From positions 1,374,501 through 1,438,500 of the forward strand of contig NZ_CP042466.1 of the NCBI RefSeq assembly GCF_008330225.1: a stretch of 64,000 nt of DNA, read 5' to 3'. Shown in pieces: positions 17,984 through 23,728 of this stretch. Made by a program: the position numbers and the translations under genes. This DNA is from Geobacter sp. FeAm09. GTDB lineage: Bacteria; Desulfobacterota; Desulfuromonadia; Geobacterales; Pseudopelobacteraceae. The first letter of the stretch is position 1, and every line of letters starts with the position of its first letter. The notes beneath the pieces are model-generated. The model was not told the origin of the DNA. It did no database searches and was given only the letters and a program-made list of their open reading frames with translations.

Positions 17984-18002
17984 GTGCCGGATTATGCGGC
18001 AC
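17984..18002. promoter_or_regulatory. Candidate enhancer-binding-protein site (UAS 1)
   Basis: GTGCCGGATTATGCGGCAC. The identical 19-mer occurs on the other strand at 21747-21765, and a diverged copy at 23590-23607. Each is centred 114-116 bp upstream of a -24 GG. Confidence 0.6.
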
Positions 18003-18022
18003 CTGCCCATATTTTTGCCTGT

Positions 18023-18046
18023 CGTTATATTTTATTGGATATAACG
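18023..18046. promoter_or_regulatory. ModE-type operator (best match)
   Basis: CGTTATAT-N8-ATATAACG, a perfect 24-bp palindrome with the arm sequence and spacing of the E. coli modA operator. It lies 60 bp upstream of the -24/-12 element. Confidence 0.75.
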
Positions 18047-18105
18047 ATAGAGTGCGTTGCTGTGTAACCGTTCAATATCACATTGATAAATTTTGTTGAG
18101 ACTGT

Positions 18106-18121
18106 TGGCATGTGTTGTGTA
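18106..18121 (+). promoter_or_regulatory. Candidate sigma-54-type promoter
   Basis: TGGCATGTGTTGTGTA, with GG and GT spaced as -24 and -12. It is nearly identical to the elements before nifH and modE. The -12 reads GTGT instead of TTGC. Confidence 0.55.
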
Positions 18122-18209
18122 ATGGGTTCGTGCAACGGGGCCGCGGTAACGTCGCCAGATAAGGCGGCGGCCCCTTGTTGGTTGTGCCGTCAATGGTTGC
18201 CGGGCAAAT

Positions 18210-18233
18210 CGTTATATAATTTTATACATAATG
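18210..18233. promoter_or_regulatory. Second ModE-type operator, in the leader
   Basis: CGTTATAT-N8-ACATAATG, one base from the canonical second arm. It ends 8 bases before the SD of the methyltransferase gene, so bound ModE would lie in the transcribed leader. Confidence 0.6.
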
Positions 18234-18254
18234 ATTGCAGGAAAGGGGAACCGT

Positions 18255-18893
18255 ATGGAGATCAATGCCCGTAAATTCGACGACATCGCCCGCACCATCT
18301 TTGCCCCCGCCTATCCGCTGCTGGCCGGGCAGATCATTGAACGGACCCGGGTCACCAGGGGGCTCTGCCTCGACCTGGGAAGCGGGGGCGGCTACCTGGG
18401 GCTGGCCCTGGTGGAAAAGAGCGACCTGCAGGTATGCCTCCTGGACGAGTCCGGGGAGATGCAGCGCATCGCCGAGGCGAACATCACGGACCGGGGGCTG
18501 GCCGACCGCGCCTGGGCCGTCAAGGGGGACGTACATAGCATCCCCCTGCAGGACGGCTGCGTCGATCTCGTGGTCAGCCGCAGCTCGCTCTTTTTCTGGA
18601 ACGACCTGGTGCGGGCCTTCGGGGAGATCGACCGGGTCCTGGCGCCGGGTGGGCATGCCTACGTGGGGGGCGGATTCGGCTCCCGCGAGGTGCGGGACCG
18701 GATCGTGAGCCGCATGCGGGAGCGGACGCCCGACTGGCAGCCCAAATACAACCAGTATCGGGAAGACGGCCGGTACGTCGGGAGCGTGCGCGCCGCCGGG
18801 ATCAGTGATTTCAGGGCGACGCGGGATGAGAGCGGCTTCTGGATAACGTTCCAAAAAACGTGGCAACAGCAACAACGGCCCAAAGCGGCATGA
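18255..18893 (+). CDS. SAM-dependent methyltransferase (class I)
   Basis: A 212-residue methyltransferase-11-like protein. Motif I is LDLGSGGGYLGLALVE, with VCLLDESGEMQ as the acidic loop, GDVHSIPLQDGCVDLVVSRSSLFFW as motif II, and EIDRVLAPGGHAYVGGGF as motif III. The substrate is not evident. GAAAGGGGAA precedes the ATG at 18255. It is the first gene after a -24/-12 promoter flanked by two ModE operators and followed by the SUOX-fold and binding-protein genes, so a role in metal or molybdenum-dependent metabolism is inferred. Confidence 0.8.
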   Translation: MEINARKFDDIARTIFAPAYPLLAGQIIERTRVTRGLCLDLGSGGGYLGLALVEKSDLQVCLLDESGEMQRIAEANITDRGLADRAWAVKGDVHSIPLQDGCVDLVVSRSSLFFWNDLVRAFGEIDRVLAPGGHAYVGGGFGSREVRDRIVSRMRERTPDWQPKYNQYREDGRYVGSVRAAGISDFRATRDESGFWITFQKTWQQQQRPKAA

Positions 18894-18959
18894 AACTCGT
18901 ATCCCATGGCGGATCGCACGGGATGCGCGAGCGCCGGAACAGCATGGGGAGGGATGACA

Positions 18960-19466
18960 ATGAAAGACATGATGCCGAATACGAAAGAGAAAATCTATGG
19001 CGCCGAGTACGTGACCCGCCAGGTGACGGTGTCGGGCAGGGTCAACCAGCCGTTGGTCCTGACGGTGGATGACCTGAGGAAGATGGAGGGGGCCGAGGTT
19101 GCCGGGCTCACCATGATCTGCGGCACCGGCAGGAAAAAGGGGGTGATCGACAGCTACCGGGGGGTGCTGCTCAGCGCGGTCCTGGACCGGGCCGACATCA
19201 TCCTGCGGGAACATCATTCCCCCAACTGGACCTACGTCACCCTGGCGTCCAGCGACGGGCACTGGGCGCTCTTTTCCTGGCACGAGATCTTCAACAGCCC
19301 GGTGGGAGAGCGGGCCGTGGTGGTCTTTGAGAGAAACGGCCTGCCGCTGGACGAAAAGGAAGGGGAGATCGGCTTCATCTCGGGCAACGATGGCCGGACA
19401 GGCCCGCGCCGCCTCCGCTACCTGCGGCACATCGGCGTGCACGAACTTGCCCGGCCCGAGGAGTGA
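18960..19466 (+). CDS. Sulfite-oxidase-fold (oxidoreductase molybdopterin-binding) domain protein
   Basis: A 168-residue stand-alone protein with the fold of the sulfite-oxidase molybdopterin domain: VSGRVNQPLVLTVDDLRKME, then VAGLTMICGTGRKKGVIDSYRGVLLSAVLDRA, then WTYVTLASSDGHWALFSWHEIF. A Cys at the usual Mo-ligand position (MICGTG) is kept. It has no signal peptide, unlike YedY, and is short, so it may bind a pterin or another ligand rather than act as a full oxidase. GGGGAGGG favours ATG 18960 over the ATG at 18954. It follows the methyltransferase gene and overlaps a possible early start of the next frame. Confidence 0.7.
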   Translation: MKDMMPNTKEKIYGAEYVTRQVTVSGRVNQPLVLTVDDLRKMEGAEVAGLTMICGTGRKKGVIDSYRGVLLSAVLDRADIILREHHSPNWTYVTLASSDGHWALFSWHEIFNSPVGERAVVVFERNGLPLDEKEGEIGFISGNDGRTGPRRLRYLRHIGVHELARPEE

Positions 19467-19513
19467 CCAAGGCTGTGGAAGCAGAACACATGCAGGTGAA
19501 AGGAGTTGGCACC

Positions 19514-22106: not shown

Positions 22107-22976
22107 ATGAGACAGGTAGCCATCTACGGCAAAGGCGGCATCGGTAAATCGACCACAACCCAGAACACGGTGGCCGGCTTGGCCACCCTCGGCAAAAAGG
22201 TCATGATCGTGGGGTGCGACCCCAAGGCGGATTCCACCCGCCTGATCCTTCACGCCAAGGCGCAGGACACGGTCATGGACCTGGTGCGGGATAAGGGAAC
22301 CGTTGAGGACCTGGACCTGGATGAGGTCATGAAGGTCGGGTTCATGGACATCAGGTGCGTGGAGTCGGGCGGACCGGAGCCGGGCGTGGGATGCGCCGGC
22401 CGGGGGGTCATCACCGCCATCAACTTCCTGGAGGCGGAAGGCGCCTACACCGACGACCTGGATTTCGTTTTTTACGACGTCCTCGGCGACGTTGTCTGTG
22501 GCGGGTTTGCCATGCCGATCCGGGAGAACAAGGCCGAGGAGATCTACATCGTCTGCTCCGGCGAGATGATGGCCATGTTCGCCGCCAACAACATCGCCAA
22601 GGGTATCCTCAAATATGCCACCACCGGCAGGGTGCGCCTGGCCGGCCTGATCTGCAACTCCCGCAAGACCGACCGGGAGGCCGACCTGATCGAGGCCCTG
22701 GCCGCCAGAATGGGTACCCAGATGATCCACTTCGTGCCCCGGGACAATCAGGTGCAGCGGGCGGAACTGCGGCGCATGACGGTCATCGAATACTCCCCGG
22801 ACCATCCCCAGGCGGCCGAGTACAAAACCCTGGCCCAGAAGATCATCGACAACAAGATGCTGGTCATTCCGCGCCCTCTGGACATGGACGAGTTCGAGGA
22901 TCTCCTGATGGAGTTCGGCGTCATGGAGGCGGATGACGAGGAAAACGTGGGCAAAAGCGAGGCCATGGCAGCCTGA
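22107..22976 (+). CDS. nifH: Nitrogenase iron protein NifH
   Basis: The 289-residue dinitrogenase reductase, a homodimer that passes electrons to NifDK with ATP hydrolysis and also works in FeMo-co synthesis. P-loop [14 protein letters not shown], [4Fe-4S] ligands Cys96 (GVGCAGRG, with the ADP-ribosylation Arg99) and Cys131 ([13 protein letters not shown]), and the C-terminal [19 protein letters not shown] extension all fit a NifH of the clostridial/deltaproteobacterial type. AAGGAG lies 6 nt before the ATG. It is followed by nifX, not nifDK, which is unusual. Confidence 0.95.
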
Positions 22977-23009
22977 TGCGTCCACAAACGGCCGGGGAAA
23001 GGAGGCTCC

Positions 23010-23387
23010 ATGAAAGTTGCTTTCACGACGTCGAACGGTGTCGCAATAGACGAGAATTTTCGCAAGTCCACCAGCTTCACCGTCTGGGACGTGGGACCGG
23101 ACGAGGCTTACTACGTCACCACGGTGCGGATCGCCGAAGACGCGGGAGGTGAAGACGACCGGATCGCCGCCCGCGTCACGGCGCTCAGCGGCTGCTCCAT
23201 CGTGTGTGCCCGGGAAATCAGCGGGCCGGCGGCGGCCAAGCTGGTGGCCAACAATATCCACCCCATGAAGAGCGGTGCCACCTCCTCGGTGGAGGAGGTC
23301 ATCGACAGGCTGAAAGACGTGCTGCGCGGGACGCCGGCCCCCTGGATACGCAAGGCCCAGATCATGGACGCCGCCGGTGAAGGGTAG
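23010..23387 (+). CDS. nifX: NifX/NafY-family FeMo-cofactor carrier
   Basis: A 125-residue member of the dinitrogenase iron-molybdenum cofactor family, which holds FeMo-co or its precursor NifB-co in transit. Visible are MKVAFTTSNGVAIDENFRKSTSFTVWDV, CSIVCAREISGPAAAKLVANNIHPMK and the end PAPWIRKAQIM, which resembles the PPWLRK tail of NifX. The His that often follows the ENF motif is replaced by Arg. AAAGGAGG precedes the ATG, 33 bases after nifH, so the two form an operon. Confidence 0.85.
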   Translation: MKVAFTTSNGVAIDENFRKSTSFTVWDVGPDEAYYVTTVRIAEDAGGEDDRIAARVTALSGCSIVCAREISGPAAAKLVANNIHPMKSGATSSVEEVIDRLKDVLRGTPAPWIRKAQIMDAAGEG

Positions 23388-23418
23388 GCCTGCTCCGTTA
23401 TCCGGGCGCCGGGCCGCC

Positions 23419-23459
23419 CCATTCATGCAGGAGGGCGTGCCGCTCCGCCGCATGAATGG
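23419..23459 (+). terminator. Hairpin ending nifH-nifX
   Basis: A perfect 10-base inverted repeat CCATTCATGC/GCATGAATGG around a 21-base loop, followed by TTAAATTATCC. It is terminator-like without a clean T run. Confidence 0.5.
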
Positions 23460-23589
23460 TTAAATTATCCTCATATTTTCAAATTGATAGAATGATTGTC
23501 GTAATGAGAATAGCCGGGCCTGGTCGCGGTAACGTGCTGAAACATCAACATGATAAGGGGTGTGGCGGCGTGGGCGCCGCACCGGCGGT

Positions 23590-23607
23590 TGTCCGGATTG
23601 TAGGCAC
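23590..23607. promoter_or_regulatory. Candidate enhancer-binding-protein site (UAS 3, diverged)
   Basis: TGTCCGGATTGTAGGCAC keeps CCGGATT and GGCAC of UAS 1 and 2. Its centre is about 115.5 bp upstream of the modE -24 GG. Confidence 0.5.
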
Positions 23608-23626
23608 TATCGTGTGATAGTGCCTA
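23601..23626. repeat. Perfect inverted repeat upstream of modE
   Basis: TAGGCACTATC, loop GTGT, GATAGTGCCTA. It overlaps UAS 3 by seven bases and has no T run, so an operator is as likely as a hairpin. Confidence 0.6.
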
Positions 23627-23628
23627 TC

Positions 23629-23652
23629 AATTATGAAAGATCCTCTATAACG
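23629..23652. promoter_or_regulatory. Weak ModE-like site upstream of modE
   Basis: AATTATGA-N8-CTATAACG keeps the TTAT and ATAACG cores at ModE spacing. It suggests autoregulation. Confidence 0.35.
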
Positions 23653-23712
23653 GTCGGAAGGCCTTTTGTAAAACATATAGTTATTACAGATATTTGAAGT
23701 GTTGTGGCCTTT

Positions 23713-23728
23713 TGGCACGTATCGTGTA
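23713..23728 (+). promoter_or_regulatory. Candidate sigma-54-type promoter of modE
   Basis: TGGCACGTATCGTGTA has the full TGGCACG -24 element and GTGT at -12. It leaves a leader of about 260 nt before modE. Confidence 0.55.

Follow-up and report, generated by a model that had tools for sequence, protein, structure and literature searches.

Why should three promoters in one bacterial gene cluster carry a palindrome at nearly the same distance from a promoter element that resembles those of sigma-54? The question arises in a 64,000-nucleotide stretch of the Geobacter sp. FeAm09 genome (hereafter the window; positions 1,374,501-1,438,500 of the single contig of 4,099,068 bp), which holds a molybdenum (Mo) and nif cluster by NCBIfam and Pfam matches. 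A first-pass annotation had placed the promoters before a methyltransferase operon (P1), a nifH gene (P2) and modE (P3), and matches to PF08241, TIGR01287 and TIGR00638 bear out the three loci. The observation is real. The interpretation first given to it, in which an enhancer-binding protein governs a nitrogen-fixation regulon, points in the right direction but does not reach far enough. The best explanation, which we consider probable, is a regulon for nitrogen limitation whose sigma-54 promoters are switched on by an NtrC/GnfM-like activator and held back by molybdate-loaded ModE. In addition to the genes first named, the regulon takes in P-II and molybdate genes, and ModE-type operators belong to its design.

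The 17-bp dyad and the element downstream

The annotation had started from a 19-mer at 17984 that recurs as its exact reverse complement at 21747. Both copies were confirmed, and a scan of the genome found no other exact copies. When up to three mismatches were allowed, the 19-mer was found at two places in the window (four matches over both strands; shuffle mean 0.02 matches) and at 30 places in the genome, compared with 36 for the reversed control pattern. The degenerate copies are therefore not above chance, and the degenerate 19-mer was dropped as a genome-wide marker; the two places with two mismatches fall in seemingly coding sequence (by eye). The supposed third, diverged copy at 23590 does not match the 19-mer within three mismatches, but it stands as a 17-bp dyad with 7 of 8 outer positions. 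The informative unit is the 17-bp dyad plus its distance, not the 19-mer. This unit reads TGC(C/A)-N9-(G/T)GCA and was scored at its outer positions by the model TGCC-N9-GGCA. The dyads, which have NtrC-type TGC/GCA ends, score 8/8 in P1 and P2 and 7/8 in P3, and their centres lie 114, 115 and 116 bp before the GG of the element, so the near-constant distance first described holds. P3 also contains a proximal dyad, 31 bp from the distal one. A perfect 11-bp inverted repeat, TAGGCACTATC-GTGT-GATAGTGCCTA, is located between the two P3 dyads at 23601-23626 and overlaps their edges; it was considered as the actual P3 enhancer but not adopted.

The element downstream had been read as TTGGCA(T/C)-N7-GTGTAAT. 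The spacer is N5 rather than N7. Sigma-54 promoters have GG and GC, or a tolerated variant, with N10 between; the GG-N10-GT reading was correct and was found in P1, P2 and P3. The pattern TTGGCAYRTNNYGTGTAAT has three exact matches in the genome, and these are the P1, P2 and P3 elements. The wider pattern TTGGCAYN6TGNAAT has 11 matches in the genome compared with none for the reversed-pattern control, and because six of the 11 read TGTAAT, a T at -12 is ordinary in this genome. These results support the assignment of the element to the sigma-54 class and suggest, as far as sequence can tell, that it is a normal form for this genome. The sigma-54 consensus is given as TTGGCACGGTTTTTGCT in the part of PMC2725144 used here. 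T-variant elements such as these may escape promoter finders that expect GC at -12.

Recurrence of the design in the genome and across the order

To judge the spacing we used 29 promoters with elements starting TTGGCA before modE, methyltransferase, nifX, nifH, porin or post-methyltransferase genes. This is a picked set, because other scanned elements (in L113, L115, L121, L124, L126, L127, L094 and others that were coding or in the opposite orientation) were excluded. A dyad of at least 7/8 was found at 112-116 bp, a range picked after the data had been seen, in 12 of the 29, whereas 1000 dinucleotide shuffles averaged 0.064 and never exceeded 1; the 29 sequences are, however, related to one another. 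A dyad at 79-85 bp was present in seven of the 29 (maximum of 2 in 1000 dinucleotide shuffles).

The combination was then sought as a pattern in 141 genomes of the order. With a single dyad and the element as pattern, 24 matches were found in 21 genomes, compared with one for the control. All but one precede recognisable genes: P-II (8), modE (6), nifX (4), nifH (2), a nitrogenase-associated ArsC-like gene (2) and the methyltransferase gene of the source genome (1); the remaining match (L166) precedes nothing recognisable. Tandem dyads plus the element gave 25 matches in 22 genomes and none in the control. These precede P-II (10), modE (6), nitrogenase-associated ArsC-like (3), porin (2), FKBP (1) and modA (1) genes, a glnB-like P-II gene with an AmtB-like gene after it (1), and a nifE/D-like gene (1); the FKBP place (G105) and one ArsC-like place (G109) come directly after modE. 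In all, 23 of 24 and 25 of 25 matches lie before nitrogen or molybdenum genes or beside modE, if the methyltransferase operon of the source genome is counted among the 23 and the porin and FKBP genes among the 25. This supports the idea of a nitrogen-fixation regulon under an enhancer-binding protein and shows that regulon to have been drawn too narrowly. Across the order the dyads are positioned 110-116 and, where a second is present, 80-85 bp before the GG. The exact P1 17-mer also occurs in another genus (G021), upstream of a small open frame and nifH (named by eye).

Downstream genes were mostly named by eye from translations, except at the P-II and modE places: the ten tandem P-II places were also found by a separate P-II search and the modE places by a modE search, with G122 outside it. 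Translations were viewed for 10 of the 25 tandem loci, and the other 15 are places already met in the single-dyad or modE sets. Two genomes (G124 and G028) share one P-II promoter sequence, which is counted twice in both searches. The modE, nifX and porin matches are not independent of the pattern, because it was built from part of these genomes, while the P-II, glnB-like, nifE/D-like, FKBP, ArsC-like (G109) and modA promoters had no part in making the first pattern. At loci L065-L077, with 1,500-base flanks, the stricter pattern found no element; the looser pattern did so at five methyltransferase or neighbouring promoters among them (L117, L118, L120, L122, L123).

These matches bear on the question of whether shared ancestry explains the coincidence, with P1 and P2 as copies of one promoter and P3 as a loose match. 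The spacers of P1 and P2 are weakly similar (z 4.5), as to a lesser degree are those of P1 and P3 (z 2.7), and the leaders of P1 and P2 give z 2.0. By contrast, no similarity was seen between the spacers of P2 and P3 (z 0.3) or between the P1 and P2 flanks upstream (z -0.06), and the same layout occurs in other genera before the non-orthologous P-II, nifE/D-like, ArsC-like and FKBP genes. We regard common descent as a highly improbable explanation, one that the order-wide pattern matches appear largely to refute.

Further examples were found in the source genome. In a P-II promoter on the minus strand, at 1,981,476, two dyads 31 bp apart, at 123 and 92 bp, come before TTGGCAAAGTGTTTGC; the pair is one helical turn farther from the element than usual, and two weaker 7/8 dyads are located at 149 and 79. 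In the promoter of nifH1, the other nifH copy, 8/8 dyads lie at 82 and 138; a further promoter, upstream of radical-SAM, GNAT and homocitrate-synthase-like genes, carries one of 7/8 at 118. In the relatives, a gene for a divergent P-II protein with the tandem enhancer was seen at L299-L301, L303 and other P-II loci; the two P-II genes of the source genome are only 41% and 43% identical to this protein.

ModE-type operators, the candidate activator and the predicted control

The first-pass annotation had overlooked ModE-type operators, which are centred near -72 or overlap the -12 element. Boxes of the operator form CGnTATAT-N8-ATATAnCG were found near mod genes at 18023, 24890, 18210 and 21877, and the ModE-type boxes of the relatives are mostly at two positions, -71 to -73 or +18 from the GG. 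A rival is a sigma-70 reading, in which TTGGCA is a -35 box, a -10 box TATATA lies 17 bp on under the ModE operator, and GG-N10-GT is a by-product of TTGGCA beside the ModE half-site CGTTATGT. P2 and its same-genus orthologues do read TTGGCA-N17-TATATA, and the ModE fit at +18 reaches 12 to 15 of 16 positions in many relatives. However, P1 and P3 have no -10 box, and P-II promoters have the same element and dyads without a +18 ModE-like box. We also compared 54 promoter rows, for which TTGGCAY-N6-TG was the selection criterion and in which some promoters appear twice (from the tandem and picked sets). A -10 match of at least 4/6 is present in 11 of the 54 overall. In the 24 rows without a +18 ModE-like box, a -10 match at 16-18 bp reaches at least 5/6 in one and at least 4/6 in two, about the background (2% and 14%), yet TTGGCAY-N6-TG is kept in all 24. 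The sigma-70 reading is therefore unlikely; sigma-70 with ModE was rejected as the sole explanation and retained as a rival for P2 alone.

A complete TG(C/A)-N11-GCA proximal dyad at 81-84 bp contains the left half of the -72 box in six of 14 promoters (e.g. TGCATCGTTATATTGCA), whereas base shuffles averaged 0.041, with at most 1. Because the left half-site sits inside the dyad, Mo-ModE could exclude the activator from it. We tentatively propose that in part of the order Mo-ModE and the activator are mutually exclusive on the enhancer, and that elsewhere ModE acts as a gate over the -12 element, an idea we hold possible but short of probable. If it is true, sigma-54 promoters would be anti-activated through metal occupancy of an enhancer dyad, a form of wiring new to this class.

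As to the protein that would bind the dyad, the genome contains 59 stretches matching PF00158 and the window none. The leading candidate, judged from its sequence, is an NtrC-like response regulator (L132/L309, genome 3237332-3238774), whose gene is directly downstream of a PAS-HisKA-HATPase kinase gene. Its best model is TIGR01818, matched over the full length at 536.4 bits, and its recognition helix is NtrC-type (judged by eye). Eight other enhancer-binding proteins of the genome, scored against NCBIfam, preferred other models or had lower scores. Another such protein might bind the dyad instead, given the 59 stretches. One example would be a relative of an unusual response regulator (L111 7236-8675 in G004; also in G022), encoded no more than about 4 kb from nifX in a genome of the same genus. 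This is a doubtful but not negligible alternative: the protein has no close relative among 30 enhancer-binding-protein loci of the source genome (about 35% identity), whereas L132 combines the NtrC-type helix with the top NtrC score among the proteins tested.

A regulator of the NifA/AnfA type, dedicated to nitrogenase and molybdenum genes, is a very unlikely binder by comparison with an NtrC-like response regulator. Genes for NifA/AnfA-like activators (by eye) were seen in the mod operon of G073 (L118 7247-8956) and beside a modC-like gene in G009 (L120 10444-11001), which would suit this idea. On the other hand, AnfA-like orthologues (at least 81% identity) occur in six of the 141 genomes, while the dyads are spread over more genomes and precede P-II genes as well. 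No orthologue was found in the source genome, where the best match was partial, at 53%, among the best 10 of 65 first-look candidates scored. On this distribution an AnfA-like protein was rejected as the general dyad binder. The NifA enhancer consensus is TGT-N10-ACA, and the dyads here end in TGC/GCA.

For the NtrC/GnfM-like reading, we propose the following sequence of events. When fixed nitrogen is short, the NtrC/GnfM-like enhancer-binding protein would become phosphorylated and would bind the 17-bp dyads, of which the distal one is centred about 110-116 bp and a proximal one, in promoters that have it, 80-85 bp before the GG, roughly three helical turns away. The bound activator would then, by DNA looping, remodel sigma-54 RNA polymerase at TTGGCAY-N6-TG. 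Molybdate-loaded ModE at -72 would compete with the proximal dyad, and over the -12 element it would block polymerase. Expression of nifH/nifX, the molybdate-uptake genes, modE and the methyltransferase operon would thus require nitrogen shortage and would peak when molybdenum is scarce too, so that nitrogen-fixation and molybdenum-uptake genes would be switched on together. In this scheme we infer the identity of the binding protein, its phosphorylation, DNA looping and the repressive direction of ModE action.

Several points weigh against this explanation. The evidence consists entirely of sequence elements, spacing, conservation and gene context, and the 29 picked promoters come from related species. 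Since their spacers are weakly similar, P1 and P2 may share ancestry, and neither has a clear proximal dyad. No dyad of at least 7/8 was found in the second P-II promoter of the genome (L297), in the promoter of an ANTAR gene (L059, 9832) or, within 75-125 bp of the GG, in a fourth sigma-54-like promoter of the window, P0. The nifH1 dyad at 138 lies within a terminator-like repeat and may be due to chance. Among seven sigma-54-like promoters of other genes, a single one carries a 7/8 dyad (at 106), and 8/8 dyads are absent from the 75-125 range (expectation per range 0.11 and 0.005). The six promoters with an embedded ModE half-site represent two lineages, four same-genus orthologues (Oryzomonas) and two from genus g10, and the embedded arrangement is not intact in the window, where P1 scores 3/6 with the right half of the proximal dyad lost. 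For the candidate activator, the score of L132/L309 falls below the curated TIGR01818 cut-off of 558.6, and nine enhancer-binding proteins were scored against NCBIfam, compared with the 59 PF00158 stretches.

The design can be compared with known systems. The enteric NtrC consensus is TGCACC-N5-GGTGCA, and the glnAp2 promoter of E. coli has sites at -140 and -108. The present dyads are like those of the enteric NtrC regulon in being 17-bp dyads with TGC...GCA ends before a sigma-54 promoter; at 114 and 81 bp from the GG they correspond to about -139 and -106, near the glnAp2 positions. The enteric tandem arrangement, with dyads about 31 bp apart, is seen in P3, in the P-II promoter at 1,981,476 and in the 25 tandem matches of the order, but not in P1 and P2. 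In contrast to the enteric sites, the half-sites here also read TGCC/GGCA or TGACTA...GGCA, molybdate transport, modE and nifH/nifX are among the direct targets, and ModE-type operators are interleaved. In Geobacter sulfurreducens, Ueki and Lovley (2010) reportedly described GnfL/GnfM and GnfK/GnfR, with the response-regulator activator GnfM as nif master regulator. The order is the same, and GnfM is a plausible binder of the dyad. Like that system, the source genome encodes a GnfR-like REC-ANTAR protein adjoining its main nif cluster (L059 9216-9776, genome about 3,574,116-3,574,676); directly upstream of its gene is the sigma-54-like element at L059 9832.

The names gnfK and gnfR occur in PMC7962754. 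In Desulfovibrio vulgaris, DVU3220 is a predicted, conserved nitrogen response regulator that bound, in gel shifts, to the operon for an ammonium transporter, P-II and P-II uridylyltransferase (PMC3333781); the section cited gives no binding motif. In Rhodobacter capsulatus, mopA-modABC is activated by NtrC with RpoD and repressed by molybdenum through MopA/MopB, and NtrC and MopA/MopB also control anfA (PMC6925177). A nitrogen activator and ModE-type molybdenum repressors thus act on one molybdate-transport promoter there as well; unlike the present case, NtrC works with RpoD and not RpoN, and the portion cited does not mention an overlap of nitrogen and molybdenum sites within one dyad. A ModE regulon with an operator consensus was predicted in Geobacter sulfurreducens (PMC2700814). 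The operator consensus and the modE-mod genes are the same as here, but the portions cited make no mention of a sigma-54 enhancer or nitrogen control (PMC2700814, PMC545781). As judged from titles and the beginnings of abstracts, no description of the combined dyad, sigma-54 and ModE architecture was found among the matches listed, which leaves its absence unproven.

Geobacterales are important in paddy soils and in bioremediation. For this order the dyad defines a nitrogen-regulator site precisely enough to be tested, in a promoter design that would unite nitrogen and molybdenum control.

Features of the locus

Table 1. Promoter features and genes of the window, in positional order; distances are from dyad or box centres to the GG of the element.
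Feature	Position	Strand	Sequence	Remarks
P0 dyad	14584..14600	+	TGCCTATTAATTAAGCA	7/8; 182 bp before GG, beyond the usual range of distances
P0 ModE-like inverted repeat	14694..14717	+	CGTTATGG-N8-CCATAGCG	
P0 sigma-54-like element	14772..14790	+	CTGGCAAGCATTATGCTTG	Fourth element; near-identical in same-genus loci L108, L109, L110
Solute-binding protein / cobW-like / ATP-binding cassette (ABC) operon	14836-17867	+		Downstream of P0
P1 distal dyad (19-mer)	17984..18002	+	17-bp core TGCCGGATTATGCGGCA at 17985-18001	114 bp before GG
P1 ModE-type operator	18023..18046	+	CGTTATAT-N8-ATATAACG	16/16 half-site positions; -72
P1 element	18105..18123	+	TTGGCATGTGTTGTGTAAT	TTGGCAT-GTGTT-GTGTAAT
Second ModE-like box, P1 leader	18210..18233	+		14/16
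Methyltransferase gene, first of P1 operon	18255..18893	+		PF08241
Molybdopterin-binding oxidoreductase-domain protein, P1 operon	18960..19466	+		PF00174
Solute-binding protein SBP_bac_6, P1 operon	19514..20728	+		PF13343
P2 distal dyad (19-mer reverse complement)	21747..21765	-	17-bp core at 21748-21764	115 bp before GG
P2 element	21869..21887	+	TTGGCATATGTTGTGTAAT	TTGGCAT-ATGTT-GTGTAAT
P2 ModE-like box over -12 element	21877..21900	+		13/16; +18
nifH, second copy, behind P2	22107..22976	+		TIGR01287 above cut-off
nifX-like gene	23010..23387	+		TIGR02663 110.8 bits, slightly below cut-off 112
P3 distal dyad	23590..23606	+	TGTCCGGATTGTAGGCA	7/8 outer positions; 116 bp before GG
P3 proximal dyad	23621..23637	+	TGCCTATCAATTATGAA	7/8, relaxed score; 85 bp before GG
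P3 degenerate ModE-like box	23629..23652	+		11/16 only; -73
P3 element	23712..23730	+	TTGGCACGTATCGTGTAAT	TTGGCAC-GTATC-GTGTAAT
modE, molybdate-responsive regulator	23991..24806	+		TIGR00638 above cut-off; PF03459
ModE-type box directly 5' of modD	24890..24913	+		14/16
modD, modA, modB, modC-like ABC ATPase	24934..28505	+		modD/modA/modB NCBIfam; ATPase PF00005

The genes and promoter features of the window are collected in Table 1. Genes for CowN and FKBP are located on the minus strand between the P1 operon and the second nifH copy. The other nifH copy, nifH1, lies at genome position 3,568,570, is 84% identical and is accompanied by nitrogenase component genes. The modE product scores 96.9 against TIGR00637, slightly below the cut-off of 98.5. 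The P0 region spans 14540-14836 of the window, before its operon. In relatives, the modE/mod operon contains a porin-like gene (by eye; L118 4017-5297, L108 8351-9787, L112 6689-8032), for which an outer-membrane channel for molybdate is a possible role.

A search of the window with Rfam at gathering thresholds found two tRNAs and no RNA element in the promoter leaders, and the leader folds of P1, P2 and P3 gave z values of -1.9, -1.5 and +0.8. On these results we make no claim of an RNA element in the leaders. GC-rich hairpins were seen in the leaders of P1 (18124-18254) and P2 (21960-22106) and are possibly antitermination targets. Elsewhere in the window, a PFL-like glycyl radical enzyme at 12195-14554, preceded by a radical-SAM gene, is spread over two overlapping frames (PF02901 positions 2-351 and 342-647), a split that is a frameshift or an assembly error.

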